NCBI GenBank assembly: GCA_947372965.1
Contig: CANBVR010000014.1
Coordinates: 1 to 34,140 of the forward strand
Length of the DNA stretch: 34,140 nucleotides
DNA from: Actinomycetota bacterium
GTDB lineage: Bacteria > Actinomycetota > Actinomycetes > Nanopelagicales > Nanopelagicaceae
Direction: 5' to 3'
Positions 11 to 25,295 of the stretch are shown here, one piece after another; the first letter of the stretch is position 1, and each line of letters opens with the position of its first letter. The notes under the pieces are model-generated. The model did no database searches and had not been told where the DNA came from. It saw nothing but the letters and a program-made list of their open reading frames with translations. A program made the position numbers and the translations under genes.

Positions 11-976
11 TCATACTTTTAGCGGAGTGATAAGTCCGCTGGCCTCAAGATCACTCCATAGATTTGCTGGGAGCTCTAAATCAAAGTCAGCGATATTTGC
101 CTTTAACTCTTTTAAATTTCCAGGTCCAGATAAGACCGTTGCAACTGCAGGATGGCGAAGTGGGAATTGAAGTGCTACCGCCGTTAGTGGCACGTTGTAA
201 TCCGATAAGAAATTACGGATTGCGATCGCCTTATCAATAATTTCCTGTGGGGCTGGGGCGTAATCAAAGTGGGCACCGGGAACTGGGTTGGCTAGTACTC
301 CAGTATTGAAGACACCAGCGGCAACAATCGATACCTTTTTTCTTAACGCCAATGGATATAGCTCCTCTTGCGCGCTCTGGTCCAAGATTGTGTAGCGCCC
401 AGCTATAAGAGCAATATTTAATTCAGTTTCCTTCATGATCGCAATTGAAGCCGGAAGCCAATTCATTCCAATACCAATTGCCTTTATGATCCCCTCTTCC
501 CGTAATCTGGCAAGAATTGGATAGACCACATTAATTGCTTGATCAACTAATTCATCAGCATCGTGAATATAAGCAATCTCAATTTGATCGCGGCCCAGGC
601 GCCATAAACTATCTTTGATAGATTTTTCAATTCCGGCAGCAGAGTAGTCATAATAAATTTCAGTATTTGGATCCGCATTTGGATATTTATCCATCTCCAG
701 GTTTTTTCCTGGGCGAAGTAACCGTCCCAACTTTGTTGAGATGATTACATTGCGACCAGCTGTAGCACGACCAACTCTTCCTTCGCACACGCCATAGCCA
801 TAGAGCGGAGCGGTATCAACATAATTAATTCCCGCATCAAGGGCGTGATCTAATACCTCGCGAGCCTCTTCTTCGCTCACTGCTTTGAAGAGCCCGCCAA
901 TTGGCGCCGTGCCGAGACTGAATTTTGTAACAGATAAGTCAGTTCCATTGATCTTGGTTAATTCATTATGCCTCAT
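11..976 (-). CDS. Aldo/keto reductase (L-fucose dehydrogenase / D-threo-aldose dehydrogenase-like)
   Basis: 321-aa ORF; N-terminal SxFxLGTAPIGG and DAGINYVDTAPLYGYGVCEGRVGRA typical of AKR; last gene of the rhamnose operon, ATGA-type overlap with the kinase gene. Confidence 0.85.
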   Translation of the reverse strand: MRHNELTKINGTDLSVTKFSLGTAPIGGLFKAVSEEEAREVLDHALDAGINYVDTAPLYGYGVCEGRVGRATAGRNVIISTKLGRLLRPGKNLEMDKYPNADPNTEIYYDYSAAGIEKSIKDSLWRLGRDQIEIAYIHDADELVDQAINVVYPILARLREEGIIKAIGIGMNWLPASIAIMKETELNIALIAGRYTILDQSAQEELYPLALRKKVSIVAAGVFNTGVLANPVPGAHFDYAPAPQEIIDKAIAIRNFLSDYNVPLTAVALQFPLRHPAVATVLSGPGNLKELKANIADFDLELPANLWSDLEASGLITPLKV

Positions 977-2376
977 GAGTTCACCGCTCTCGGTAAATAT
1001 TCCTTCTGTTCAATACTGTTAGCGATTAACTTTCGGCCTTCATCCAAATCCTTAATTACACCAAAAGCTTGCATCTGAATAATTAAATTTCCCAGCACAG
1101 TCGCCTCGATTGGGCCAGAGAGAACTTTCTTTCCGGTGGCATCGGCAGTTAATTGATTTAATAAATCGTTGGCCGATCCCCCACCAACAATGTTGATCGT
1201 TGAAACTTCGATTCCAGCTGCATCTTGTAGTTCACCGAGCGTCTTGGCATATGCAGCGGCAAGCGAATCAAAGATGCACCTGGCAAATTCGCCAGGAGTG
1301 GTTGGAACATACTTATTTTGATCTTTTAGATACTTTGCAATTCGCCCAGGCATATCGATTGGCTTTTCAAAGACCGGATCATTTGTATCAAAAATATCTC
1401 GTGATGGAAGTAGGGCAGCCTCGGCCGCTAATTGCGCCGCGCTATAGCTCGCACCTTGATCGCGCCAATGGCGGATTGATTCTTCAAGTAACCACATGCC
1501 GGTTACATTTCGAATGAATCTAATTCGTCCCTCGGCCCCAATTTCATTTGTGATGTTGTAGTTCATCGCCTTGGAATCGGTAACGGCCTTTGAAAGTTCT
1601 AGACCAACTAATGACCAGGTGCCGGATGAGATATATGCGGATTTACCAAAAAGTGGTGTTCCTGCAACTGCAGATGCGGTGTCATGTGAACCAACCGATA
1701 CAACTTGCGCCCCGTCGATGGCACCGTGGCCTTTAACTTTTCCAAGTTTTACGCCAGGTTTGTGGACAGGTGGAAATATTTTTCGTGGGATGCCCAACTT
1801 ATCAATCAGCTCGAAATCCCAATCTTGAGTCTTGGCATTTATTAATTGAGTAGTGGAGGCGTTGGTGACTTCGGCCCCTTTTACCCCACATAAAATGTAA
1901 TTAAGTAAATCCGGGAGAAGTAGGAATTCTTTGGCTCGTTTTAATTCATCGGTCTCTTTGGCGGAATAAAATTGGTAGGCAGTATTAAAGAAAATGAATT
2001 GAATACCTGTGCGACCGTAGATATATTCCAAACCTAAATCGTGCTTTAGTGAATCCATCAGGCCATCAGTGCGCTTATCGCGATAGGCAAATGGAGTTTC
2101 GATTAATTCACCGCGCTCATCCAACAGCCCGTAATCAACAGCCCAAGAATCGACGCCAACTGATTTAATTTCACCGAGTTCACTAGCCTTATTAAGGCCA
2201 GCCAAAACTTCACTAACGATGTGCTCCCACTCCCAGCGAAAGGAGCCATCAGGCAGGATCTTTGCTTCATGTTTAAAGCGATGTACTTCTTGCATCGCAA
2301 TCTTTCCTGAATCAAGGCGCCCTACGGCAACTCGGCCACTAGACGCCCCAAGATCAACTGCTGCAAATAGCTCCAT
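973..2376 (-). CDS. rhaB: Rhamnulokinase (FGGY family)
   Basis: 467 aa; AAVDLGASSGRV, VDSWAVDYGLLD, SHDTASAV, YISSGTWSLVG, VGGGSANDLLNQ motifs; rhamnose operon context. Confidence 0.9.
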   Translation of the reverse strand: MELFAAVDLGASSGRVAVGRLDSGKIAMQEVHRFKHEAKILPDGSFRWEWEHIVSEVLAGLNKASELGEIKSVGVDSWAVDYGLLDERGELIETPFAYRDKRTDGLMDSLKHDLGLEYIYGRTGIQFIFFNTAYQFYSAKETDELKRAKEFLLLPDLLNYILCGVKGAEVTNASTTQLINAKTQDWDFELIDKLGIPRKIFPPVHKPGVKLGKVKGHGAIDGAQVVSVGSHDTASAVAGTPLFGKSAYISSGTWSLVGLELSKAVTDSKAMNYNITNEIGAEGRIRFIRNVTGMWLLEESIRHWRDQGASYSAAQLAAEAALLPSRDIFDTNDPVFEKPIDMPGRIAKYLKDQNKYVPTTPGEFARCIFDSLAAAYAKTLGELQDAAGIEVSTINIVGGGSANDLLNQLTADATGKKVLSGPIEATVLGNLIIQMQAFGVIKDLDEGRKLIANSIEQKEYLPRAVNS

Positions 2377-2382
2377 AACTAT

Positions 2383-4434
2383 TTATCGCATGAATGCTGC
2401 TGCGACGCCACCATCTACTGGAATGTGTAAGCCGGTCGTAAGTGACAAGTCGCCACCTAGAAGAGCAAAGACTGCCGCCGCAATATGGTCTGGCAAAACT
2501 TCTTTTTTCAAGATAGTTCGCTTGGCATAAAACTCACCGAGTTTCTCTTCTTCAACTCCATAAACTGCGGCGCGATTGGCGCCCCAACCTGATGAGAAGA
2601 TTCCTGAACCTTGGACTACGCCATCTGGATTAATTCCATTAACGCGAATTCCTGATTCACCTAATTCAGCTGCAAGCAACCTTACTTGGTGAGATTGATT
2701 TGCCTTGGTTGCGCCGTAAGCCACGTTATTTGGTCCAGCGAAGACTGAGTTCTTCGAAGAGATATAAATAATGTCAGCCGATAAACCTTGTGCCAACATC
2801 ACCTTTGCAGATTCGCGGGAAACTAAGAATGAACCGCGACCCATGATGTTGTTCTGTAGGTCCCAATCCTTTAGCGTTGTTTCAACAAGTGATTTACTAA
2901 TTGAGATGCCCGCATTATTAACAACTATATCTAGGCCACCAAAGGCTAGACAGGTTGCGGCAATGGCAGAAGAGATCGCCTCTTCGCTGGTGACATCCAT
3001 TGAAACTGCGACTGCAACATCTGGACCGCCAAGTTCTTTGGCAAGAGCCTGCGCTCCTTCAAGATTTAGATCTGCGATAACAACGCATGCGCCCTCTTTT
3101 GCTAGACGAGTTGCAGTTGCCTTGCCTAAACCTGATGCCGCGCCAGTTACTAGTGCGATGCGACCGGCAAGTGGCTTTGGCTTTGGAGCCCGACGAAGCT
3201 TTGCTTCTTCTAGATCCCAATATTCGATGCGGAACTTTTCAACTTCCGGAATTGGTGCGTAGATAGAGAGCGCTTCAGCTCCCCGCATAACGTTTATTGC
3301 ATTGATATAAAACTCAGATGCCACACGAGCGGTTTGCTTATCTTTTCCATAGGTAAACATTCCGATTCCTGGAATAAGAATTACGGCTGGATCAGCGCCA
3401 CGAATTGCTGGTGAATCTTTCTGGGCATGACGATCGTAATAAGCCTGGTAGTCAATGCGATATTGCGCGTGCGCCTTTGCCAACGCCTCGAGTACTTCTT
3501 CCATCGGCGCATCTGGCGCAGTTTGAATCACCATTGGCGATACCTTCGTGCGCAAGAAGTGATCTGGACATGAAGTGCCGAGAGCGGCAAGTTTCATTAG
3601 CGATTCGCGCTCTAGGAAATCTAGAACAACTGGTGCATCGGTGAAGTGACCGAGCATCCGCTTATCAGTAGATGCAATCTTGCGAAGATGAGGCGCTAGT
3701 TCACTGGCGCGTGCGTTTCGAGCAGCATCAGTCAAAGGCACAAATTTTGCAACCTTGGCACCGAAAGGATCTTTCTTTCCCTTTTCGATAATAAATTTCT
3801 CTGCCTTTGTAATGGCATCAACCGAACGCTTTTCACATTCATCGCTGGTATCAGCCCAGGTTGTTAGACCGTGCCCACCAAGGATGCAACCTTTTGCCTT
3901 TGGATTTTCTTTTGCAATCTTTGCCATATCCAATCCAAGTTGGAATCCTGGACGTCGCCAATCAACCCAAAGAATTTCATCGCCAAAACATTCCCGAGTT
4001 AACTTCTCGCCATCAACTGATGTTGCAAGGGCGATAATTGAATCTGGATGAAGGTGATCGACGTGATTGAATTCAACTAGTCCGTGCATCGAAGTATCGA
4101 TACTTGGCGCAGCTCCTCCCATACCAAAGCGACAGTAATCAAAGCGCGCGACCATCTCATCTTCGTGTTCTACACCCCGATATACCTTTGGTAGTTCACG
4201 AAACTTTTCGAGGTCTACTAGCGCTAAACCAGCTTCGGTCATGGTGCCAAGATCGCCACCAGAACCTTTAACCCAAAGTACTTCGGCATCTTTTCCAGTT
4301 GCAGGATTTTTTACAAAACCCTTTGATGAAGTATTTCCACCAGCAAAGTTGGTAATTCGCGGGTCGGAGCCCAATCGATTACTTCGATCTAATAACTCTT
4401 TCGCAGGTTTTGGTGTTGTCACTATGCTCCCCAC
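2383..4434 (-). CDS. rhaD: Bifunctional rhamnulose-1-phosphate aldolase / short-chain (lact)aldehyde-alcohol dehydrogenase
   Basis: 683 aa; N-terminal class II aldolase-like half (GGNTSSKG, GHGLTTW) fused to an SDR half (ALVTGAASGLGKATA, VNNAGIS, YGATKANQ); known RhaDE/RhaEW-type fusion architecture. Confidence 0.88.
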   Translation of the reverse strand: MGSIVTTPKPAKELLDRSNRLGSDPRITNFAGGNTSSKGFVKNPATGKDAEVLWVKGSGGDLGTMTEAGLALVDLEKFRELPKVYRGVEHEDEMVARFDYCRFGMGGAAPSIDTSMHGLVEFNHVDHLHPDSIIALATSVDGEKLTRECFGDEILWVDWRRPGFQLGLDMAKIAKENPKAKGCILGGHGLTTWADTSDECEKRSVDAITKAEKFIIEKGKKDPFGAKVAKFVPLTDAARNARASELAPHLRKIASTDKRMLGHFTDAPVVLDFLERESLMKLAALGTSCPDHFLRTKVSPMVIQTAPDAPMEEVLEALAKAHAQYRIDYQAYYDRHAQKDSPAIRGADPAVILIPGIGMFTYGKDKQTARVASEFYINAINVMRGAEALSIYAPIPEVEKFRIEYWDLEEAKLRRAPKPKPLAGRIALVTGAASGLGKATATRLAKEGACVVIADLNLEGAQALAKELGGPDVAVAVSMDVTSEEAISSAIAATCLAFGGLDIVVNNAGISISKSLVETTLKDWDLQNNIMGRGSFLVSRESAKVMLAQGLSADIIYISSKNSVFAGPNNVAYGATKANQSHQVRLLAAELGESGIRVNGINPDGVVQGSGIFSSGWGANRAAVYGVEEEKLGEFYAKRTILKKEVLPDHIAAAVFALLGGDLSLTTGLHIPVDGGVAAAFMR

Positions 4435-5588
4435 CCAGCTTGCTTTCCGCCAATACGTTCAGCAGAAATCTTTGCTAAGTAACCGCTGCGGGCAAACGCA
4501 GCCTTAGGATCTGGATCAAGTCCTTGTTCTGCGCGAAGTTCACCAAGCATTGGACGAACATCTGTGTTGTATGCGTCCATCAAGATGTCATTTCCACCGA
4601 GAATATCGCCAGCAACTTGCGCCTTCATAAGTGCATCGGCATCAACTAATAACGCCTTTGCCACTGCTTCTTGAACATTTGTAATCGAACGAATTTGACC
4701 TGGGATCTTATCTTCGATGTTGTGGCATTGATCTAGTACATAAGAAACCGGAGTGCCAACATCAAAACCGCCACCTTGATTTACTTCGTGCATGATTCTA
4801 AATAGTTGGAATGGATCTGCAGCGCCAACAATTAGGTCATCATCGGCATAGAAGCGTGAGTTAAAGTCAAATGCACCTAAACGCTTCTTCCAAAGTAGGA
4901 AGGCGACGATGTATTCAATATTTGTACCTGGTGCATGGTGCCCGGTATCAACGCAGACTGCCGCCTTTGGTCCAAGTTCTAGACAGTGAACATATGAAGT
5001 TCCCCAGTCAGGCACATCGGTTGAGTAGAAAGCTGGTTCGAAGAACTTATATTCCAAAAGCATTCTTTGGTTTGGTCCAAGACGGTCATAACATTTGCGA
5101 AGCGATTCAGCTAGACGCTCTTGGCGACCACTTAGATCATCTTGGCCTGGATAGTTTGTACCGTCGGCAAACCAGAGCTTTAGATCTTGTGCGCCAGTGA
5201 TATTCATAATTTCTAGGCATTCATAGAGATGATCTACTGCCTTCTGGCGAATCTTGGCATCTGGGTGACAGACTGAACCAAGTTTGTAATCATCGTCTTG
5301 GAAAGTATTTGAGTTTGCAGTACCAAGGCGAACGCCTAGATCTTTGGCATGCTGGGCTAACTTTGAGTAATCCTCAACTTTGTCCCAAGGAATGTGCATC
5401 GCAACTGAAGGAGCTGCGCCAGTAAACTTGTGAACCTGGGCAGCATCGGCAATCTTTTCAAATGGATCGCGTGGAGTTCCGGGAGATGCGAATACTTTGA
5501 AGCGAGTACCCGAATTTCCATAAGCCCATGAAGGCACTTCAATATAAAAGCGCTTTAAGACTTCCTTTGCTTCTTTGATACTTGCCAT
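4422..5588 (-). CDS. rhaI: L-rhamnose isomerase
   Basis: 388 aa; VPSWAYGNSGTRFKVF start and CVDTGHHAPGTNIEYIVAFLL region characteristic of RhaI-type isomerase; overlaps downstream gene by 13 bp. Confidence 0.9.
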   Translation of the reverse strand: MASIKEAKEVLKRFYIEVPSWAYGNSGTRFKVFASPGTPRDPFEKIADAAQVHKFTGAAPSVAMHIPWDKVEDYSKLAQHAKDLGVRLGTANSNTFQDDDYKLGSVCHPDAKIRQKAVDHLYECLEIMNITGAQDLKLWFADGTNYPGQDDLSGRQERLAESLRKCYDRLGPNQRMLLEYKFFEPAFYSTDVPDWGTSYVHCLELGPKAAVCVDTGHHAPGTNIEYIVAFLLWKKRLGAFDFNSRFYADDDLIVGAADPFQLFRIMHEVNQGGGFDVGTPVSYVLDQCHNIEDKIPGQIRSITNVQEAVAKALLVDADALMKAQVAGDILGGNDILMDAYNTDVRPMLGELRAEQGLDPDPKAAFARSGYLAKISAERIGGKQAGWGA

Positions 5589-5611
5589 TTCTTTTCACTC
5601 CCTTAGGTTGA

Positions 5612-5935
5612 TTAATCTAAATGGAAAACTTCTTCTAACTCTAAAAATCCTTCATCGGGCCGGCGCCCTTCTAGCGCGACAAAAAATTTACCCATCTCTG
5701 CTTGCCACTTGGCATTGATTGCGGTCTTTTCCATACCAGCTTTTGCCGCAGCCAAACTTGGGGTTTCAAGGTAACCAATCAAGGTTCCATCTTTGCGATC
5801 TAGATAAAGTGAGTAATTTCCCCAACCGGTGTCACGAAGGGCATCAAGCATCTCTGGCCAAACGGTTTTGTGTCGGTCGACGTATTCGTCTAAAAACTCA
5901 AGTTTTACCTGGAGACGAAAACAAACTCTCTCCAT
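5612..5935 (-). CDS. rhaM: L-rhamnose mutarotase
   Basis: 107 aa; ERVCFRLQVKLEFLDEYVDRHKTVWPEMLDALRDTGWGNYSLYLD typical of RhaM/RhaU. Confidence 0.92.
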   Translation of the reverse strand: MERVCFRLQVKLEFLDEYVDRHKTVWPEMLDALRDTGWGNYSLYLDRKDGTLIGYLETPSLAAAKAGMEKTAINAKWQAEMGKFFVALEGRRPDEGFLELEEVFHLD

Positions 5936-10942: not shown

Positions 10943-12436
10943 ATGGCTACCTACCTTGCGCTAGACCTAGGTGCTGAATCCGGACGCCTGATGGCTGTGG
11001 ATATTGGAGAAACAATTTCCACTAATGAGATTCACCGCTTTGAAACACCAGTTACAACCGATTTACGCAATCGTCGCTGTTGGGATTTTCCAAAGTTAAT
11101 TTCAGAGATCAAGGTTGCGCTTAGTAAAGCTGCGCAAATTCCAGGTGCAAAATATGAATCAATCGCAGTTGACACCTGGGGTCTAGATTTTGGCTTCCTA
11201 GATGTAAATCAAAAGATCATCGATCTTCCAGTAAGCCATCGTGATCATCGCACCGATGGATTTCTAGCCAAGGCAGCAGACCTAGTTGGCAAGAAGCGAT
11301 TGCATGAAGCAAGCGGCGCCCAATTACTTGAAGTAAATAGCATCTACCAATTACTTGCGATTAAAGAGTTATCCCCTGAGGAATTTGAAAGAGCAGCGCA
11401 CCTGCTTTTGATGCCCGATCTAATTCTCCATGCACTCACCGGAGTAATAAAGAGTGAATACACAATTGCAACAACCTCTGGTTTGTATGACGTCGTAAGT
11501 AATAAGTGGGCGCTGGACCTGGCCCTGGAACTTGGGATTCCAACAAATTTCTTTGGCGAAGTCCAAGATGCGGGATCAATTCGTGGAAATTTGCTATCAG
11601 AGATCGCAGCCGAGACTGGAATAGGCGAACTTGTTTGCATCGCCACAGCAAGCCACGACACTGCAGCGGCCGTTGTTGCAACTCCATTTACCGCACCCGG
11701 AAATGCCTATATCTCTTCTGGTACTTGGTCGCTTATGGGAATTGAATTACCAAAGCCGCTGATAAATGAAATTACCTTGGAACGTCGCCTAACAAATGAA
11801 GGTGGGTTTGGCCGAAATATTCGCTTACTTCGAAACATTATGGGTCTTTGGGTAATTCAAGAAGTTCGTAGGGATTTAAAGAAGCAAGGCATCGAACTCA
11901 CTTATGCCGAACTTGTTGATGCAGCGAAAGCACAAGCTGATCCCTATCGCACTCTCATTTATATCGATGATCCACTATTTCACCATGCCGGCGGCATGAT
12001 CGAGCGAATTCAAAGTTATGCCAAGAATTCAAAGCAGCCAATTCCAAATTCACCTGGTGAATTGGCCCAATGTGTTTTCGTCTCACTTGCACTGCAATAT
12101 TCGCGAATAGCCGATGTCTTACAGAAGTGCGGCGATCAAGAAATGAAAGCAATTCAAATTGTTGGTGGCGGCTCGCAAAATGAACACCTCTCCCAGATGA
12201 CCGCAGATATCTCTGGCATCGAAGTTATTACCGGACCGGTTGAGGCAACAGCGATGGGAAATGCCATCGTGCAAGCTATTGGACTTGGCCAATTAGCAGG
12301 ACTGGATGCTGGGCGGGAATTAGTTCGCAAGAGCGTTTCCATTAAGCGCTACGCCCCAACGCAAGATTTGGAATTACGCGCACACATCAAATCAATCCGA
12401 CTACGCTATGACCAGTTAATCGATCGGGAGTTATAA
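10943..12436 (+). CDS. Second rhamnulokinase-family (FGGY) carbohydrate kinase
   Basis: 497 aa; LALDLGAESGRLMAV, VDTWGLDFGFLD, ASHDTAAAV, YISSGTWSLMG; clearly paralogous to 973..2376. Confidence 0.87.
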   Translation: MATYLALDLGAESGRLMAVDIGETISTNEIHRFETPVTTDLRNRRCWDFPKLISEIKVALSKAAQIPGAKYESIAVDTWGLDFGFLDVNQKIIDLPVSHRDHRTDGFLAKAADLVGKKRLHEASGAQLLEVNSIYQLLAIKELSPEEFERAAHLLLMPDLILHALTGVIKSEYTIATTSGLYDVVSNKWALDLALELGIPTNFFGEVQDAGSIRGNLLSEIAAETGIGELVCIATASHDTAAAVVATPFTAPGNAYISSGTWSLMGIELPKPLINEITLERRLTNEGGFGRNIRLLRNIMGLWVIQEVRRDLKKQGIELTYAELVDAAKAQADPYRTLIYIDDPLFHHAGGMIERIQSYAKNSKQPIPNSPGELAQCVFVSLALQYSRIADVLQKCGDQEMKAIQIVGGGSQNEHLSQMTADISGIEVITGPVEATAMGNAIVQAIGLGQLAGLDAGRELVRKSVSIKRYAPTQDLELRAHIKSIRLRYDQLIDREL

Positions 12437-13222
12437 ATGAGTGAGATCGTAAAGAATCTAACCAATCTCTCGCTGCGCGCAGGTGATCCCGCCGCCGACC
12501 TAACAATTCTCGCTGAAGGCAATGCGGGCGCAGTTGATTTAGAAAACGATCGCTTCCTCGTTAAGGCAAGTGGCGTAATTATGTGTAAGGCCACCGAAGA
12601 AGATTGGGTCTACCTCCCGCTTTCAAAATGTATTGAGATCTTGGAAGACGCAAATAAGAATGGCATCTCTCAAAAGGGCGATAAAGCTCTTGATGATTTA
12701 TTGCAAAACTCGGTAACGCCAAATGGCACTAAACGAAAAGCAAGTATCGAAACTTTGGTTCACGTTGTCGCATTCCATTTAATGGGCGCCAAGTGGTCAC
12801 TTCACACCCACCCAACTCCAGTTGTTGCACTTGCCTCCAGCAAAGATGGGCCAGTGCATTACGCCGGAACTCTCTTCCCAGATGAGAGCGTTACCTGCGG
12901 ACCAACCCCACTCTTCTTGCCTTATGCCGAACCAGGTTTAACTTTGGGCTTGGGCGTTTATCAAGGTGTTGCAAAATTTATGGACGAGCACGGGCGCGCT
13001 CCTGGTCAGATCATTCTCGGCAATCACGGTCTCTGCACTTCTGGCAGTGGCGTTGATGAAGCACTGGCAACTACTGAAATTGCGGTTAAAGCCGCACGAG
13101 TTCGAATCGGTGCCTTATCTGCGGGTGGAATTAGCTTCTTGCCACAGAGCGCTGCTGAAAAGATCGCTTTCCGCCCAGATGAAGTTGCTCGTCGCAAGTT
13201 ATATGCCAAAGAAAATAAGTAA
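12437..13222 (+). CDS. Class II aldolase/adducin family protein (ketose-1-phosphate aldolase-like)
   Basis: 261 aa; LAEGNAGAVDLENDRFLVKASG, SLHTHPTPVVAL, ILGNHGLCTSG; start codon immediately follows upstream stop. Confidence 0.82.
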   Translation: MSEIVKNLTNLSLRAGDPAADLTILAEGNAGAVDLENDRFLVKASGVIMCKATEEDWVYLPLSKCIEILEDANKNGISQKGDKALDDLLQNSVTPNGTKRKASIETLVHVVAFHLMGAKWSLHTHPTPVVALASSKDGPVHYAGTLFPDESVTCGPTPLFLPYAEPGLTLGLGVYQGVAKFMDEHGRAPGQIILGNHGLCTSGSGVDEALATTEIAVKAARVRIGALSAGGISFLPQSAAEKIAFRPDEVARRKLYAKENK

Positions 13223-13225
13223 TTA

Positions 13226-13891
13226 ATGCAGCCAAAAGCAGTTACCTTTGATGTTGGCGGAATTATCTATTCTGATGATGTCTTTAAAGAGGCGATCTAC
13301 CAAGCAATCGCTCATTTCAATAATGGCGCAGATCGCACCAAGTTCGAAAGCGTCTATGACGAACACCTTAAGTCGCACTCTGGCTCGCTTCGCACCAAAC
13401 TCTGTATGGCATTCTTTGGTTCGCTCGAACTAAAAAAAGATATTATGGATTACGCCACCGAGCGTTGGAATTTCACCGCCCAAGATCTCTACCAAGATGC
13501 AATCGCATGCATCGATACGATCAAAGCAACTGGTGCAAAGATTGGTTTGGTCGCTAACCAACCACTTGCCTCCATCGAAAGCCTAAAGCGTGATGGCATT
13601 TATGAAAAAATAGATTTCCTCGGCATATCGGCAAAAGTTGGTTTAGAAAAACCAGATCCCGCTTTCTTTCAATTAGCGCTAAAAGAACTAGGTACAGAAC
13701 CAAGAGATGCGATTCATATTGGCAATCGCTTTGATACCGATGTCTTGCCAGCAAAGAATTTAGGGATGCGCACCGTTTGGATTCTGCGTGGTGAAGCAAA
13801 TCCCAACCCAGCACAAAGTGATTTGGACCAGGCCGATATCGTCGCGCCCGATCTAACTAACCTAGCAGAGTTGATCGCCAAACTTTCATGA
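13226..13891 (+). CDS. HAD-superfamily hydrolase
   Basis: 221 aa; VTFDVGGIIY, KVGLEKPDPAFFQLAL, HIGNRFDTDVLPAKNLGMRTVWI. Confidence 0.85.
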   Translation: MQPKAVTFDVGGIIYSDDVFKEAIYQAIAHFNNGADRTKFESVYDEHLKSHSGSLRTKLCMAFFGSLELKKDIMDYATERWNFTAQDLYQDAIACIDTIKATGAKIGLVANQPLASIESLKRDGIYEKIDFLGISAKVGLEKPDPAFFQLALKELGTEPRDAIHIGNRFDTDVLPAKNLGMRTVWILRGEANPNPAQSDLDQADIVAPDLTNLAELIAKLS

Positions 13892-15219
13892 GCCAAAGCT
13901 TTATCGGAGTTGATATCTCAACTGAAGGAACCAGAGCAATTCTGGTTGATGAGAACGCCAGACAAATAGCTCGTGCAACCACCAAACTCTCACCAGTAAT
14001 TCGTGGAGATGATAATTCCCAAACTCAAGATGCAACTAGTTGGGTCGAAGCAGTAAAACGAGTTCTCGCAGAAGTTGTTGAAAAGAGCGAATCCCAACCA
14101 ACGGCAATGGCAATTACTGCCACCTCTGGAACCTTTGTACTTACCAATAAGGCAGGAATCCCCGTTGCACCGGCTGCGATGTACAACGATGGCCGCGCCA
14201 ACTCACCGCTCGAACGCGCGCGAATAATTCGCCAGGGTCTTTCCAATACGAGTGAAGAACTCTTATTCGCTCACACTCCAGAATTTGTTATCGCCGCCCT
14301 TACACGAACACCACTAAATCAAATCGCCACCGATTGGTCACACGGGTTAAAGAGTGGCGCAAACCATCAAACTCTCACATGGGAAGAAACCATCGAAGGC
14401 ATTGAAATGCCAAAGATAGTTGCGCCTGGAACTTTCCTTGGAAAGATCAGTAAAGCAATAGCAGAAGAATTAAAGATTCCAGAAATGGATATCTATGCTG
14501 GAATGACTGATGGTTGTACGGGGCAAATTTCTGCCGGTGGCACAGAAATCGGTACTGCCGTAACCACTCTTGGCACAACCATGGTTATTAAGATTGTTGC
14601 GGATAAAGAAATCTCTGGTCCCGGTTTTTACTCGCACTTACTTCCAACTAATACTTGGTTAGCTGGCGGCGCCTCAAACCTTGGTGGAATTTCATATAAG
14701 AAATTCGGCGGCCTGCTAGAAAGTTTCAACGAGCGCGCAAAGAATCCAGCCACTTATCTGACCTATCCCCTGGTTGGTGTCGGCGAGCGCTTTCCGATTG
14801 CCAATAAAGAATTAGTTCATCTACAAAAAGGTGAACCACAAAGCCAAATGGATGAATACCGAGGAATATTGGAAGGTATCGCATTTGCTGAACGCCTTTC
14901 ATATGAAATCTTAGAAAGCGCCGGAGCACCAATTCAAGGCGCCGTTTACACCGTCGGCGGTGGCGCCAAGTCACAACTTCTCTCTCAGATTCGCGCAACG
15001 GTACTAAATCGCGAGATCGCGCTACTTGCTGACTCTGGTTCTGATATCGGCGCCGCCATGATTGCAATTGGTGCAAGTGCCGGTGGCGATCTAGCAACAT
15101 CGATTGCAAAGATCAAAATCCCAATAGGTAAGACGATTCAACCAAACGCATCACAGCTAGAACTACTTGAAGCGCGCTATCAGGAATTTCACTCACTAAT
15201 CCATTCATATTTACCTTGA
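13888..15219 (+). CDS. FGGY-family carbohydrate kinase (xylulokinase/D-ribulokinase-like)
   Basis: 443 aa; FIGVDISTEGTRAILVDE, GMTDGCTGQISAGG, VGGGAKSQLLSQIRA; ATGA overlap with upstream gene. Confidence 0.82.
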   Translation: MSQSFIGVDISTEGTRAILVDENARQIARATTKLSPVIRGDDNSQTQDATSWVEAVKRVLAEVVEKSESQPTAMAITATSGTFVLTNKAGIPVAPAAMYNDGRANSPLERARIIRQGLSNTSEELLFAHTPEFVIAALTRTPLNQIATDWSHGLKSGANHQTLTWEETIEGIEMPKIVAPGTFLGKISKAIAEELKIPEMDIYAGMTDGCTGQISAGGTEIGTAVTTLGTTMVIKIVADKEISGPGFYSHLLPTNTWLAGGASNLGGISYKKFGGLLESFNERAKNPATYLTYPLVGVGERFPIANKELVHLQKGEPQSQMDEYRGILEGIAFAERLSYEILESAGAPIQGAVYTVGGGAKSQLLSQIRATVLNREIALLADSGSDIGAAMIAIGASAGGDLATSIAKIKIPIGKTIQPNASQLELLEARYQEFHSLIHSYLP

Positions 15220-15223
15220 TCGC

Positions 15224-15523
15224 ATGTACTGTGAACCCGTTATGAGAAAACTGCTCTTCCTAGATCCCAGCGATAACATCGCCGTCTCCCTAGCCGATCT
15301 CGAGATCGGTGAACTCATCGAACAAGATGGCACGACGATTAAAGTTTTGAATAAGATAAATCGCGGCCATAAGATCGCCACCAAAGAGATTAAGAAAAAC
15401 GATGGCATCATCAAATATGGCGAGCGCATGGGCCATGCCACTAGCGATATCCATATCGGCGAGCATGTTCACACCCACAACGTTCTAGGCGATCGCCTCT
15501 CAACCGAGCAAGTGGCAAAGTAA
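15224..15523 (+). CDS. SAF-domain protein, UxaA-family dehydratase small subunit (start may be ATG 15242)
   Basis: 99 aa; LDPSDNIAVSLADLEIGE...RGHKIATKEIKKNDGIIKYGERMGHATSDIHIGEHVHTHNV, matches the N-terminal SAF domain of altronate dehydratase. Confidence 0.85.
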   Translation: MYCEPVMRKLLFLDPSDNIAVSLADLEIGELIEQDGTTIKVLNKINRGHKIATKEIKKNDGIIKYGERMGHATSDIHIGEHVHTHNVLGDRLSTEQVAK

Positions 15524-16339
15524 ATGAGCACTGGCTACCTTCACGAAAATCGCGGCATCGGAATCCGCCATCACCAATTAATCCTTCCTTCCGTTGTCTG
15601 CTCCACCCACGTCGCCCGAAGAATTGCCAATGGCTTAGATGCAATTACCTTCGCTCACCAACATGGCTGCGGGATTATCGGTGGCGATGTCGCCGGCATC
15701 GATGACTTCTTCTCACAATTAGCGGCACATCCAAATGTGAGTTCGGTACTAGTGGTCGGCCTGGGCTGTGAAACTATTCAGAGTCAAGAACTCGGCGCAA
15801 AACTCCTCGAGACTAACAAATCGACTAGATACCAAATCATTCAAGAATCTGGCGGAGTACAAGGCACGGTTGATTCCGGTATTGCTGCAGCCAAGCAATT
15901 AAATGCTGACTTTCCAAAGAACCAAGTAGAAATAAGGAACGACCAAATCACCGTCGGTATCGATAACTCAAATCCAAAGATCGACACCACCGAACTCACC
16001 AACGCACTTAAGGCCGCCGGCTACAAAGTCGAAATCGTTACTGATTCCCATATCTCAATCGACAACTTTTCAAAGCTTATGGAGTTAAAGGCTCAAGTAA
16101 TCATCTCCTTTCCAGATGAGAACCAACCAGCCTCTGGATTCCCATTGATTCCAGTAATTAATATCGCTGGCACCGGCCCGCTTCACCAAGCAACCAGCCA
16201 AGACTTTGATTTAACCAACACAAACTCAAGCCAAGAGATTCTTGATCTTCTTGCCAAAGTAATCGCTGGCCAAGAAACAAAGGCTGAGAAGAGCAGCGTC
16301 GGTGAAATTCGCGCACCTAGAATCGTAAGGAGCGTTTGA
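15524..16339 (+). CDS. UxaA-family dehydratase large-subunit-like paralog A (shortened)
   Basis: 271 aa; GIGIRHHQLILPSVVCSTHVARRIA, HQHGCG, VLVVGLGCE, C-terminal GQETKAEK; lacks the GLECGGSD and LEEKSLG segments. Confidence 0.75.
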   Translation: MSTGYLHENRGIGIRHHQLILPSVVCSTHVARRIANGLDAITFAHQHGCGIIGGDVAGIDDFFSQLAAHPNVSSVLVVGLGCETIQSQELGAKLLETNKSTRYQIIQESGGVQGTVDSGIAAAKQLNADFPKNQVEIRNDQITVGIDNSNPKIDTTELTNALKAAGYKVEIVTDSHISIDNFSKLMELKAQVIISFPDENQPASGFPLIPVINIAGTGPLHQATSQDFDLTNTNSSQEILDLLAKVIAGQETKAEKSSVGEIRAPRIVRSV

Positions 16340-17514
16340 TGGACTCGCCACTAAAAGCTTTTAAGCGCACTGATGGTCGATGGGGCCTTCGCAATCACGT
16401 TTTGATCTTGCCACTTCACTCTGCGCTTTCAACTACTGCCCGAAAGATCGCTGATGATGTGAGCGGTTGCGTAGCTCTCAATCACGATTGGTCTGGCGAA
16501 GTAGATAACGATCTACCTCGCGTCACAAAGACTTTGGCGGGCTCTGCAGCAAACCCAAATAACCATTCAGTTATCTTCTTAACTCTTGGTACCGATGTTG
16601 AATTAGAAATTATCAAGCAAGCAAAGGCGATAACAAAACAAACCATCATCGAACTTTCACTACCAAAACTCGGCTCGATTCAAACTCTCACCGAGCAAGC
16701 AACACAAGAAGCAATAAAACTTGCCAAAGAAGCAGAAGCAGAAGCCCGCGTCCCAGCGCCTTGGTCTGCGATTGTTCTTGGCCTTGAATGCGGCGGCTCT
16801 GATGCGCTCTCTGGAATTACTGCCAATCCAGCCCTCGGTGTTGCTTCAGATCGACTCGTAGAACTCGGTGCCACATCAGTTCTTGGTGAAACAACTGAAA
16901 TTCTTGGCGCCGAACACTTACTTGCAGCGCGCGCACTCGACGAAGAGACCGGTAAAAAGATTGTTGCAATGGTTGCTAGATATGAATCATCAATTAACTA
17001 TGAAGGAATTGATATTCGTGGCGCCCAACCATCTCGTGGAAATATTGAAGGTGGTCTTTCTACTCTTGAAGAGAAATCACTTGGCGCCGCTAAGAAAGCG
17101 GGCAACGCTCCCCTAACTGGTGTTCTTGAATTCGCCGATGTTCCCGCAAAACCGGGTCTCTACTTTATGGATACCCCTGGCCATGACATCGAACAATTAG
17201 CTGGCTTTGCTGCCGGTCACATCAATGTTGTTGTCTTTACCTCTGGTCGCGGCACACCAACAGGTTCACCAATCATGCCGGTCATTAAAGTAAGTACGAA
17301 TACGCCGATGTATAAAGCAGTTACCGACTTCATCGATCTAGATGCCGGCACTATCGCCGATGGCATCGAAACCCTCGAAGAAACTGGCGCAAGAATTTTT
17401 GATGAGATTGTTGCCGTTGCTAATGGTCAAGAGACTAAGGCTGAGAAGAACGGCCACCAAGAATTTGCCCTTAGTCGCATGTATGAAACCGTAGTCCCAC
17501 CGCTTTTTTCCTAA
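16336..17514 (+). CDS. UxaA-family dehydratase large-subunit paralog B
   Basis: 392 aa; GRWGLRNHVLILPLHSALSTTARKIA, GLECGGSDALSGITANPALG, GGLSTLEEKSLGAAKKAG, SGRGTPTGSPIMPVIKVSTNT. Confidence 0.83.
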   Translation: MMDSPLKAFKRTDGRWGLRNHVLILPLHSALSTTARKIADDVSGCVALNHDWSGEVDNDLPRVTKTLAGSAANPNNHSVIFLTLGTDVELEIIKQAKAITKQTIIELSLPKLGSIQTLTEQATQEAIKLAKEAEAEARVPAPWSAIVLGLECGGSDALSGITANPALGVASDRLVELGATSVLGETTEILGAEHLLAARALDEETGKKIVAMVARYESSINYEGIDIRGAQPSRGNIEGGLSTLEEKSLGAAKKAGNAPLTGVLEFADVPAKPGLYFMDTPGHDIEQLAGFAAGHINVVVFTSGRGTPTGSPIMPVIKVSTNTPMYKAVTDFIDLDAGTIADGIETLEETGARIFDEIVAVANGQETKAEKNGHQEFALSRMYETVVPPLFS

Positions 17515-20195: not shown

Positions 20196-22055
20196 CTAAT
20201 TCTTAGGAAGTCGAGATTCAAAGTACTTCCTCGTTTCCTCGTTTGTGAAATAAACATAACAACCCTTCATTCCACGGCTCATTAAGGTCCTGTAAGTATT
20301 ACGAATTAACTCATCGGCTTTTGCGTCGGCCAATTCTGGATTTATCTTTCGTTCTGACTTATAGCCAGCCAAAGACTTGTCGGTTTTTGCTCTACCTGCA
20401 GGATTAGTAATGAGTTTGTCCCCATAAACCTGCAAGTCCTCTCCAACTATTACGCCCACATAGTCCATCTCAAGTCCCTGACAAGTGTGGATACAACCCA
20501 CTTCCTCGACGGAGTTTGGATTTAAGATCCATTCATTTCCATAACTAGCTAAGTTCCAACGCGCTTGATAGTTAGACTCAGAAATTTTAATATCAAATAC
20601 CTTCGAATCTTTCTTGCTCTCCCAGTTCCAGCAATAACCAGCGACTACGCGGGATTTATTTGAATTTAAATTTTTTTCCCTTATTAACTGATGCAGTACG
20701 AGAGGAGAATCTATGACTTGAAAGTCGAATTTCTCCCGACTGAAGTAATTCTCGGGGATATTTTGTAAACCTAAAGTGTCATCAAGCCACGCCATGTAAT
20801 CGTCGGAACCACCACATCTAAATTGAGAAACAAGTTCTAATATCTCAACGTCAGCACCTAACGCAGCTGCATTTGCCTTAATTCTAGATATCTCGCCTAC
20901 GTCTGACCAAGTGACTTTCTGCGCTTCATCAATAAAGAAGACACTCAACTTTGAGGAAAAGATAATTTCCTTTGCCTGATCTTCCCCTAGATTCTTAAAC
21001 ATTCCCGATTTCATACGTAGGCGATGCGCTTCATCTACAATCAAAACGTCCATTGAATCTTTTTTGGTTTCCGTATATGAGCCGGAACCACCAAATAAAT
21101 GTTTTACGGAATCTCCCGCAACTAAATTTTTTAACTTTGCTTGAAAGACATCCCGTGGTGCGGCGTTAGCGGTTACATACTTCACGTTCAATCTTTGGGA
21201 GGTTAATTCCGCGAGTGCATTGATAGAAATAACCGATTTTCCAGTTCCAGGTCCACCCTTAATTATTAGAACTTTTTTTCCACTTTTCTGAGTTTCACGG
21301 GCAGCCAGAAGAATTTTCTCATAGGCAGTTTTCTGCTCATCAAGGAGAACAAATTCATTTTGACCTTTAAGCATATTCCCAACAGCTTCCGCCAATTGCT
21401 TCGATGGCCTAATAACCGCAGCATCGACTCGCTCTAGAAGTTGAATCCCACTTCCTTTAACAATATTTTTCTCAATCAACTCTTGGAGTTCGGCGAACTC
21501 ACCGTGCAGAAAAACGGGAGCAAGTTGAAGCGCATTCTCATAGCGGGAACTTGTTATAACCGATCGGTCTTTGCAATTATGTAGGTAGGCGCAAGCAGAA
21601 ACACTTAGTGAGTTCTCGTATACATATTCGTTAAACATCTCGAGGTGCGACTTGTATGACCAAACTTGATAAGAAGGGTGAGTAACGTCTCTTAATCCCC
21701 CTCCAAGAACTGTCTTGACGTGTTCCTCTAGATCTGAAAATTGGATATCAGTCCATTGCTTCAATTCAATTATTACCAGGGACTCTTTATTTTGAGAGTC
21801 CAGCCCTGAGATAACAAAATCCAATCTAAAACGCCGGCCATTCAACCGGTATTCAATCGCAATGCCCGCGTCATCTGGGATCTTTTCAGAACGCATGATG
21901 TTCGACATGGCATTTCCAAGAGAATTTCGCCATGAGAGGTATTCACTCTCCCCGACAGCAAAATTCAATTTGGCTAAAACCGCATCACGAACTTTGTCCT
22001 CTATTACCGGGGCATCGAGCAAGAATTGACCCTTTGTTCCTAGGTACGCCAGCAC
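20196..22055 (-). CDS. DUF2075-type ATPase/helicase with N-terminal PD-(D/E)XK-like region
   Basis: 619 aa; Walker A IKGGPGTGKSVISI, Walker B VLIVDEAHRL; N-terminal RLDFVISG...LVIIELKQW (D...ExK). Confidence 0.75.
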   Translation of the reverse strand: MLAYLGTKGQFLLDAPVIEDKVRDAVLAKLNFAVGESEYLSWRNSLGNAMSNIMRSEKIPDDAGIAIEYRLNGRRFRLDFVISGLDSQNKESLVIIELKQWTDIQFSDLEEHVKTVLGGGLRDVTHPSYQVWSYKSHLEMFNEYVYENSLSVSACAYLHNCKDRSVITSSRYENALQLAPVFLHGEFAELQELIEKNIVKGSGIQLLERVDAAVIRPSKQLAEAVGNMLKGQNEFVLLDEQKTAYEKILLAARETQKSGKKVLIIKGGPGTGKSVISINALAELTSQRLNVKYVTANAAPRDVFQAKLKNLVAGDSVKHLFGGSGSYTETKKDSMDVLIVDEAHRLRMKSGMFKNLGEDQAKEIIFSSKLSVFFIDEAQKVTWSDVGEISRIKANAAALGADVEILELVSQFRCGGSDDYMAWLDDTLGLQNIPENYFSREKFDFQVIDSPLVLHQLIREKNLNSNKSRVVAGYCWNWESKKDSKVFDIKISESNYQARWNLASYGNEWILNPNSVEEVGCIHTCQGLEMDYVGVIVGEDLQVYGDKLITNPAGRAKTDKSLAGYKSERKINPELADAKADELIRNTYRTLMSRGMKGCYVYFTNEETRKYFESRLPKN

Positions 22056-22619: not shown

Positions 22620-25295
22620 ATGACCAAGTTAAGTCGTCCAGATGAGGGAGAAGTTGTTTCTCACCCTACATATGGAAAAGGTCAGATCAAAGAAGTTGCT
22701 CATGGGTCAATATTTGTATCTTTCTATGATTGGCCGGGGGTGTATGTATTTTCTATTGAAGACTTAAGGAATGGATTCAAGGGAAGTCCCTATCAGTCGG
22801 CCACCCCTCAAAAACAAGTCAAAGTCGAACTTCCAGATCGAGCATGGATTAATTCTGTGATTTCCAACAACTACTTGAAATCTGAAGAAATTATCTTGGA
22901 AAGACATCAAAAGTTGATTTCTCGTAATGAGATATCAGAACTTCAACTTAAGTGGGTTGCCAGCAAATTCGACGACTTAGATACCGCAAGTCCCGACACA
23001 GATCAATTAAAAGCAATTGCAGCAACAGAGAAGCGAGTCCTTGTTACTGCTCGAGCCGGAAGCGGCAAAACTCGAACAATAGTTAATCGGGCTATTTTTT
23101 TGACTGAATTTTGTAATGTGGATCCGAGTGAAATCCTTATTCTGGCATTCAATAGGGCTGCAGCAGCTGAGGTACTAAATCGTCTTACGACATTTTCCCC
23201 AAAATTCGAAAAATGCCATGTGATGACCTTTCATGCACTCGCTTATGGAATTGTCCATCCCGAAGAGGCTCTCTTGATTGATAACACCGAGCAACAAGGT
23301 TCAAGGATCCTTGCGGTCGAATCTATCGTGAAGAATTTGCTCGAGGATAAGGAATTTGCAGAAGACATCATGAGCGTAATGCTCAGTTTTTTTCGTACGG
23401 ATTGGCACACCGTAAAAAGTGGTGGATGGCATTTACTGAATGATAAAGAGCAATTCCTGAATTTTCGACGGGGTCTCTCAAACGAATCAATGAGAGGGGA
23501 GACAATAAAATCGCTCGGCGAGAAGATAATTGCAGACTTTCTCTTCCAGCATGATTTCGACTATAAGTACGAGAAGTACTTCAAATGGGATCGGCCATAC
23601 AGACCTGATTTCACAGTCGAACTTGGCGAGGATCAGGGTGTAATAATTGAATACTTTGGCATGCGAGGGAACCCACAATACGACTCTGAAATAATTGAGA
23701 AACAGGACTTTTGGGCAAACAAGCCTGGGTGGAAATTGCTGTCCTATTACCCTGAGGATCTCAATTTAGATTCACTTGAAGATCTAGAACATCGAATTGT
23801 CACAGATTTGACCGAGCTTGGATTGAGTGTCAAAAGGTTATCTGACGAAGAAATCTGGAAAAGAATTGAAAATAGAGGTACCTATCAATTCACAAGTACC
23901 GTGAGCAATTCAATTAGTAAAATTCGAAAAAGAAATCTGAGTGCGGAGCAATTCAAAGATATTGTTGATGCATATACTCCTCAAGATACAGCCGAATTAA
24001 AATTTTTAAAGCTGCTTGTCAGGATATTTTCTAGATACATGGAATTCTTAGAACAAAGTGATAACGACGACTTTGACGGTCTAGTGAATCGAGGTGTGCA
24101 AAAAATCGAAGAAGATCTGCTGGGGTTTGTGCGCAAGAAAACCCAGGGCAATCTTGGAGAGATTCGCTTTATATTTGTTGATGAATTTCAAGACTTTAGT
24201 GAGCAGTTCTTTAGGATAATCGATTCAATTTTTAAAAAGAATCATGAGGCCTCGCTTTTCTGTGTTGGAGACGATTGGCAGGCAATAAATTCATTCGCTG
24301 GCTCAGAACTTAAGTATTTCAACTCCTACTCGGATTATTTTGGCGATATTAAGAAATATTCACTTATGAAGAATTACCGCTCTGGGGCGTCAATTGTTGA
24401 ATTATCAAATGGAGTTATGAAAGGGCTAGGTACCCCTTCTCTTGCAGAATCAGACGCTCTAGGATCAATACGACTTGCTGAGTTGAAACGACGGAATATT
24501 TCATCTAGCGAAGACTTAATTTATAAGGGTGATCGATTAACGCCTGCGCTCACCAAAATGTTGATTCAACTTGGAGGAAAGTTCTCTGTCGCAGTTCTTG
24601 GTCACAACCGAGTCAGTATCCCGTATTACGTAAAAATCGGCGAACAAAGAGGCAGCAGTCTCCTAGATAGATTCGGAGAAAAGGTTAAATCTATGCTCCC
24701 CCCAGAACTTTCTAAGAAAGTACTTTTTTCCACCATCCATGGATTTAAAGGGAACGAAGCAGACGTGGTAATTCTCTTGGATCCTATTGAGAGATCATTT
24801 CCCTCAATTCACCATACATGGCGGCTTCAAAGAATTTTCGGCGTATCGCACGAGGGTCTTGAAGAGGAAGAGCTTCGTCTATTTTATGTAGCCCTGACTA
24901 GGGCGGCTAAGCATCTTGTTTTGATTTGTAATGAGAGCAAGGAATTGACTCCTTTTCTGTCCAAAAATTCAAAAATTGAGAATCTCCAACCTATCGATTG
25001 GTCCAGAATCGACGATATTGGAATCGATGAAGTTATTGTCACTGTCCGTAGCAAAGGCTTTGGAACTAGAAATATCAGTGCAGAACTCAAAGATGCCAAG
25101 TATTTTTACAGAGTTGAAAGTAAATCTTGGACGAAATATCTAAGGGCCGAAAGCTTCAACTTGCAAAGCATTCAAGCAAGTAACTGGGGAGCCAAAGCGG
25201 ATGATGTTTCTGTGACCATTGACTACCCCGATGGCCTTACTTCGACGACGTGGCGAATTTCTAATGGAAAATGGATCCAAGAGCCACTTGATTAG
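22620..25295 (+). CDS. UvrD/Rep-like superfamily 1 DNA helicase with inserted nuclease-like domain
   Basis: 891 aa; motif I ARAGSGKTRTIVNRA, II FIFVDEFQDF, III FCVGDDWQAINSFAGS, IV KNYRSG, V STIHGFKGNEADVVIL, VI LFYVALTRAAKHLVL; insertion YRPDFTVELGEDQGVIIEYFG. Confidence 0.88.
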   Translation: MTKLSRPDEGEVVSHPTYGKGQIKEVAHGSIFVSFYDWPGVYVFSIEDLRNGFKGSPYQSATPQKQVKVELPDRAWINSVISNNYLKSEEIILERHQKLISRNEISELQLKWVASKFDDLDTASPDTDQLKAIAATEKRVLVTARAGSGKTRTIVNRAIFLTEFCNVDPSEILILAFNRAAAAEVLNRLTTFSPKFEKCHVMTFHALAYGIVHPEEALLIDNTEQQGSRILAVESIVKNLLEDKEFAEDIMSVMLSFFRTDWHTVKSGGWHLLNDKEQFLNFRRGLSNESMRGETIKSLGEKIIADFLFQHDFDYKYEKYFKWDRPYRPDFTVELGEDQGVIIEYFGMRGNPQYDSEIIEKQDFWANKPGWKLLSYYPEDLNLDSLEDLEHRIVTDLTELGLSVKRLSDEEIWKRIENRGTYQFTSTVSNSISKIRKRNLSAEQFKDIVDAYTPQDTAELKFLKLLVRIFSRYMEFLEQSDNDDFDGLVNRGVQKIEEDLLGFVRKKTQGNLGEIRFIFVDEFQDFSEQFFRIIDSIFKKNHEASLFCVGDDWQAINSFAGSELKYFNSYSDYFGDIKKYSLMKNYRSGASIVELSNGVMKGLGTPSLAESDALGSIRLAELKRRNISSSEDLIYKGDRLTPALTKMLIQLGGKFSVAVLGHNRVSIPYYVKIGEQRGSSLLDRFGEKVKSMLPPELSKKVLFSTIHGFKGNEADVVILLDPIERSFPSIHHTWRLQRIFGVSHEGLEEEELRLFYVALTRAAKHLVLICNESKELTPFLSKNSKIENLQPIDWSRIDDIGIDEVIVTVRSKGFGTRNISAELKDAKYFYRVESKSWTKYLRAESFNLQSIQASNWGAKADDVSVTIDYPDGLTSTTWRISNGKWIQEPLD

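Follow-up and report, generated by a model that had tools for sequence, protein, structure and literature searches.

Probable division of one active site between two chains

Can two neighbouring genes, each coding for an incomplete large chain of the UxaA/GarD superfamily, together supply what one intact chain would hold? This question is raised by a locus in a 34,140-nucleotide stretch of actinobacterial DNA (hereafter the window), for which an earlier note, made from the letters alone, had suggested that the active site is shared by two paralogs, A and B, working with a free SAF subunit. UxaA (altronate dehydratase) and GarD (galactarate dehydratase) are single chains with the domain order PF08666-PF04295-PF20629, and the same three domains are found here, spread over three genes (Table 1). 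SAF, A and B lie head to tail with their ends touching or overlapping, the stop of A overlapping the ATG of B as TGATG, with AAGGAG at 16327-16332 as ribosome-binding site.

Table 1. Coordinates of the features at the locus, numbered from the first letter of the window.
Feature	Position	Strand	Match or equivalent
Rhamnulokinase-like kinase, class II aldolase, HAD hydrolase and second FGGY kinase, operon-like run	10943..15219	+	Family matches
SAF subunit, 99 aa, free N-terminal domain of the UxaA/GarD superfamily	15224..15523	+	PF08666 1.1e-06
Subunit A, 271 aa, second domain plus shortened, degenerate C-terminal domain	15524..16339	+	PF04295 3.3e-27
A Cys26 (SVVCST)	15599..15601	+	UxaA Cys132 column; alignment column 167
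A Cys49 (HQHGC)	15668..15670	+	UxaA Cys166 column; alignment column 206
A Cys82 (GLGCE)	15767..15769	+	UxaA Cys199 column; alignment column 242
Subunit B, 391 aa from ATG, second domain without three Cys, complete GD_AH_C	16339..17514	+	
B Cys152 (LECGGSD, numbered from TTG), fourth family Cys	16789..16791	+	UxaA Cys264; alignment column 317

Re-reading the sequence, we recovered the open reading frames, coordinates and motifs of A and B as they had been described, with two corrections. The frame of B is real, but its likely start is the ATG at 16339 and not the TTG at 16336 that gave 392 aa; VVGLGCE is indeed present in A, but it begins at 15752, the positions formerly given for it (15758-15772) reading GLGCE. 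A further carries SVVCSTHVARRIA, HQHGCG from 15656 and GIDNSNPK from 15956. B carries GLECGGSDALSGITANPALG at 16780-16839, LEEKSLG and SGRGTP, and its first half reads LPLHSALS, NHDWSGE and TLGTDVE.

Homology places both proteins in the superfamily (PF04295 plus PF20629, COG2721), A through Pfam GD_AH_second only, with no match to PF20629, and B through GD_AH_second (PF04295, 2.2e-16) as well as GD_AH_C (PF20629, 3.1e-94). The tails of A relatives match PF20629 weakly (1.5e-5 to 8e-4), and judged by such matches the A tail is a degenerate GD_AH_C domain. Compared with E. coli GarD (PDB 6u7l), B gives an E value of 6e-57 and A only a marginal match. The best NCBIfam match of SAF is to the start of TIGR03248, galactarate dehydratase, whose equivalog cut-off of 730.85 is reached by none of the three chains (B 211.5 bits, SAF 32.8, A 25.1). 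In the window genome, an assembly that is 92% complete, no PF04295 proteins other than A and B were found. Single-chain AF2 models were poor (A, pTM 0.58 from 3 sequences; B, pTM 0.40 from 2 sequences), and NifEN-like Foldseek matches of A, with a TM of 0.28 on such a model, were treated as meaningless.

Four family cysteines are split three to one

We aligned A and B proteins with E. coli UxaA, GarD and other superfamily members. Exactly four cysteine columns are invariant in the 11 references with an intact site (UxaA Cys132, 166, 199 and 264), and a fifth is cysteine in 9 of the 11. Columns 167, 206 and 242 hold cysteine in 11/11 references, 37/37 A and 0/37 B, and column 317 in 11/11 references, 37/37 B and 1/37 A. 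All 37 A/B pairs show this three-plus-one division, as do all 39 when two more pairs are added (27 from the window's order, 3 from another class and 9 haloarchaeal), so that neither A nor B singly has the four cysteines in one large chain and only the two together do. The complementary motif loss reported from the window is not due to chance: it recurs in 27/27 A and 27/27 B of the order, in 3/3 pairs of the other class and in 9/9 haloarchaeal pairs. The A of Haladaptatus YSMS36 (L136:3459-4592) is the sole A with cysteine at the fourth position (GIVCSD), and it lacks GGSD.

What these cysteines may do is indicated by a D-arabinonate dehydratase of the superfamily, for which a published study describes an EPR signal of rubredoxin-like ferric iron (Watanabe et al., PMC6336799). 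According to that study, the only cysteines that the superfamily conserves, with the exception of sulfolactate sulfo-lyase (SuyAB), are Cys134, 173, 208 and 276; they were proposed as iron ligands, and Cys-to-Ser substitutions were tested (PMC6336799). We equate these residues with our four columns, since in both analyses no further cysteine is fully conserved. The motifs kept in A and in B, which the note had taken for parts of a metal site, coincide with these proposed ferric-iron ligands. An iron site has experimental backing in a homologue, and iron would be expected to bind at A/B.

The division extends beyond the cysteines. The references have 52 invariant columns, 12 of them in the second domain and 40 in the C-domain; A of the order keeps 85% of the former and 18% of the latter, and B keeps 52% and 95%; the haloarchaeal values are 96% and 46% for A, and 75% and 94% for B. 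B has its own invariant LPLH and HDW (window 16408-16419 and 16483-16491; HDW in 27/27, HEW in the other class), placed where intact relatives carry the cysteine motifs. With these residues conserved, the second domain of B is not simply decayed; it may have a new role, with LPLH and HDW possibly serving as new ligands or at an interface. A has a conserved motif of its own, RxVRSV, at its end. Lineage-specific conservation of this kind (RxVRSV in A, HDW in B) is what one would see if A and B were separate enzymes, or binding proteins with different ligands, whose genes happen to share an operon. We find this improbable, as each of them lacks residues that are invariant in intact relatives, the losses are complementary, and the two are never apart except at a contig edge.

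A and B travel together in actinobacteria and haloarchaea

A-type proteins occur in 52 and B-type proteins (60% identity or more) in 51 of 296 genomes of the window's order. The note had named a B standing alone as evidence against a shared site, and none appeared: A is present in all 51 genomes with B, and the sole A that lacks B (G015) is at the end of a contig. In 50 of the 51 pairs A and B are adjacent on the same strand, the remaining pair being split over two contigs, and the order SAF-A-B is kept in all 26 larger loci of the order examined.

At about 270 aa, A is a shortened chain in which most of the catalytic C-domain is gone, as would fit a duplicate in decay. This reading is very unlikely: A persists in 52 genomes at 46-62% identity to the window copy, with Cys26, Cys49 and Cys82 invariant in the aligned set; frame decay, suggested earlier as a sign to look for, is absent, with zero stops or frameshifts among the A copies of the order; and homologues of A exist in another class and in archaea. 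Conservation and the absence of stops led us to rule out pseudogene decay.

Outside the order, the adjacent pair recurs in other genomes, of a second actinobacterial class and of archaea. Trios are found in three genomes of one family in another class of the phylum (L124, L166, L167), and nine haloarchaeal loci, on megaplasmids, have the order B-SAF-A (Halostagnicola, Halomarina, Haladaptatus, Halomicrobium, Natrinema, Halarchaeum, Natronococcus and Haloterrigena). Haloarchaeal A proteins are longer (about 354-382 aa) than those of freshwater actinobacteria (about 270 aa). Among 396 sampled genomes of the same class, full-length A was confined to the window's family. Other phyla were sampled through plasmids and one contig scan only; the plasmid search with A gave zero matches covering 80% of its length, and the contig scan with A returned two close and two distant loci only. 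Distances between A proteins follow those between B proteins across 27 loci (r = 0.91), a correlation that shared ancestry alone would also make high. The sequence pattern is stronger and wider than the note had stated.

Four single proteins of 343-374 aa are 24-27% identical to A (L057:7533-8657, L058:5382-6506, L059:7020-8123 and L060:2789-3820). They mostly lack the family cysteines, all lack CGGSD, and they do not stand beside SAF or B.

An old pair of paralogs

All A proteins form one branch, both over the whole length (96/99) and with the second domain alone after removal of the cysteine columns (89/87). A single clade of B is not in the best tree but is not rejected either (p 0.28 and 0.31). 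B groups with intact-site proteins and not with SuyB in the whole-length tree, and beside SuyB in the second-domain tree (83/88), possibly because both have lost the same positions. By these trees A and B are old paralogs. Since A is one branch and the B clade is not rejected, the A/B split may go back to a single old duplication with later transfer between domains; it may also have two convergent origins, and long branches are in play.

The near-identical 21-mers at the ends of A and B, once read as a sign of recent tandem duplication, do match at 19 of 21 positions, but this argument has to be given up: the motif they encode occurs throughout the family, as in the UxaA of Anaerospora, a single chain that reads SGQETKAEK, and A and B are old. 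Recent duplication was discarded on that ground. We give roughly even chances to the broader reading that the trios form one cross-domain, three-chain UxaA-type class, with mononuclear iron on three plus one cysteines, a single old duplication and an A that has shrunk progressively (about 377 aa in haloarchaea, about 270 aa in the streamlined actinobacteria of fresh water).

Could B work without A?

SuyAB, the (2R)-sulfolactate sulfo-lyase, pairs SAF with a large chain that lacks the first three cysteines, much as SAF and B would do. It is the exception to cysteine conservation noted by Watanabe et al. (PMC6336799). SuyB-type chains (L062-L066, L172, L173 and one haloarchaeal protein) lack Cys 1-3, retain the fourth and have no A. 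B could likewise form with SAF a complete enzyme without cysteine-bound iron, leaving A as an accessory protein with a retained iron-binding fold, be it a carrier of iron, a regulator or a stabiliser. As SuyB-type proteins share the cysteine pattern of B and function with SAF as their only partner, the loss in B by itself is no proof of dependence on A. We nevertheless hold this explanation to be unlikely, although it is the one to be taken most seriously beside a shared site. A and B co-occur obligately and their genes overlap, and A keeps exactly the three cysteines that B has lost, in two actinobacterial classes and in archaea; an iron-free B is less likely because the pairing is obligate and A holds precisely the missing ligands. 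SuyB-type chains, in addition, read CGESD and GQGN in the C-domain, both absent from B, which has ECGGSD and the dehydratase-type GRGTP, and the placement of B in the whole-length tree speaks against this explanation even if the second-domain tree does not. In cysteine pattern B would pass for a SuyB; in having a third subunit, with A in 51/51 B genomes, it does not, and SuyAB differs also in cleaving a C-S bond. We ruled out SAF-A-B as SuyAB by its C-domain motifs and the presence of A.

Pairs of SAF and a large chain of about 388 aa that resemble SuyAB (L062-L066, L172, L173) are present in many genomes of the order and also in the other class. By their sequences they are candidate sulfolactate or related lyases.

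A proposed three-chain dehydratase

A and B are complementary halves that occur jointly in actinobacteria and haloarchaea, hence they are probably parts of one sugar-acid dehydratase. From the split, its conservation, the co-occurrence and adjacency of the genes and their context, we infer that SAF, A and B are probably three subunits of a single UxaA/GarD-superfamily enzyme whose iron site is completed between A and B. The divided active site of the note has so far survived those of its refutations that sequence can address, and is supported to that extent.

In intact relatives one large chain would hold a mononuclear, rubredoxin-like iron on four cysteines. Here the second domain of A would give Cys26, Cys49 and Cys82, and B would give Cys152 (in ECGGSD) as well as the ETxE, EKSLG and GRGTP segments conserved in its C-terminal domain. 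A and B would pair in a pseudo-symmetric heterodimer. Its one complete site would combine the second domain of A with the C-terminal domain of B, and the reciprocal site (second domain of B, C-terminal remnant of A) would have decayed. The losses would be exactly complementary because both fall in this same dispensable site. SAF would join as it does in other members with SAF plus a large chain, and the enzyme is predicted to dehydrate an aldonate to a 2-keto-3-deoxy acid. If sites are composite in this way, homomeric relatives should have them between chains, or show a domain swap. BchN-BchB is a case in which paralogous chains jointly hold a metal cluster, on three cysteines and one aspartate. 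With metal ligands across the interface of two paralogs, it and nitrogenase-type heterodimers offer a works-like analogy only; chemistry and cluster type are unrelated to those of A/B, and we claim no homology.

The trio resembles UxaA and GarD in its four cysteine columns, its C-domain motifs and, at 10 loci, its place in the genome, next to the genes for UxaC and a uronate-reductase-like protein. It differs in having three chains for one, with the cysteines divided over two paralogs. In the open-access PMC literature searched, the heteromeric members on record are SuyAB and an L-fuconate dehydratase of SAF plus large chain (PMC6336799). The latter, predicted in Paraburkholderia mimosarum, has a free SAF and a large chain of about 390 aa, like the trio (PMC6336799); yet such two-subunit members have one complete four-cysteine chain in place of two incomplete, complementary ones. 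A trio whose two large chains complement each other was not found described in that literature.

Gene context and candidate substrates

At 10 of 27 loci, in four genera, the trio adjoins genes for the glucuronate isomerase UxaC and a mannitol-dehydrogenase-family protein. UxaC scored above the NCBIfam curated cut-off in all three cases tested, and the neighbouring mannitol-dehydrogenase-family gene is nearest to fructuronate/tagaturonate reductases. This linkage to UxaC and a uronate reductase, taken as the mark of altronate dehydratase in the Ashwell pathway, is seen at those 10 loci and not at the window. B is the only complete PF20629 protein in 12 genomes searched, with an extra partial one in G288. 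The UxaC-linked trio fills the UxaA slot and is most likely altronate dehydratase. Nine of the 12 genomes with UxaC context that were searched encode UxuA as well, so that the reductase beside the trio could be part of the fructuronate branch; it may serve either branch. Relatives of the window genome encode UxuA (PF03786) either as a tandem pair of paralogs, each about 328 aa long, or in a single 677-aa frame that UxuA matches twice (G285:C9:7911-9818, G286:C53:123-2030, G035:C1:1317134-1319007), possibly another duplicated or fused dehydratase.

Trios away from UxaC would act on other (deoxy)aldonates. The neighbours at one locus (L037: alpha-L-fucosidase, DHDPS-type aldolase, aldo-keto reductase) and at another (L046: L-lactate dehydrogenase, zinc dehydrogenases, Gfo/Idh) are suggestive of deoxyaldonate substrates. 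In the window genome UxaC is encoded on a different contig. Enzymes of glucuronate interconversion have been noted in a published acI-C1 genome (PMC5301498). The window trio closes the kinase, aldolase and HAD run of Table 1, which recurs, again with SAF-A-B at its end, at three further loci (L042, L045, L048), and opposite to it stands a complete L-rhamnose cluster (RhaM, RhaI, RhaD-dehydrogenase, RhaB and a RhaS-type importer). Given this run and this cluster, a 6-deoxy-sugar acid is a possible substrate of the window trio.

The L-rhamnose genes of the window (973-5935 on the minus strand, 10943-12436 on the plus strand) include two rhamnulokinase-like kinases on opposite strands. Further along, a Schlafen group 3-type helicase protein of 619 aa (20196-22055, minus strand; PF09848, 1.9e-92) is followed on the opposite strand by a UvrD-type helicase (22620-25295).

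The freshwater actinobacterial genomes in question hold only incomplete UxaA-family chains. If our reading is true, the trio would fill an otherwise missing altronate dehydratase in several genera of these abundant freshwater actinobacteria, the window's family. It would also be a natural test of the proposed four-cysteine iron site, the ligands being already on two separate chains. For the superfamily, it would mean that a homomeric metalloenzyme became an obligate heteromer through complementary ligand loss after duplication, in bacteria as well as in archaea.
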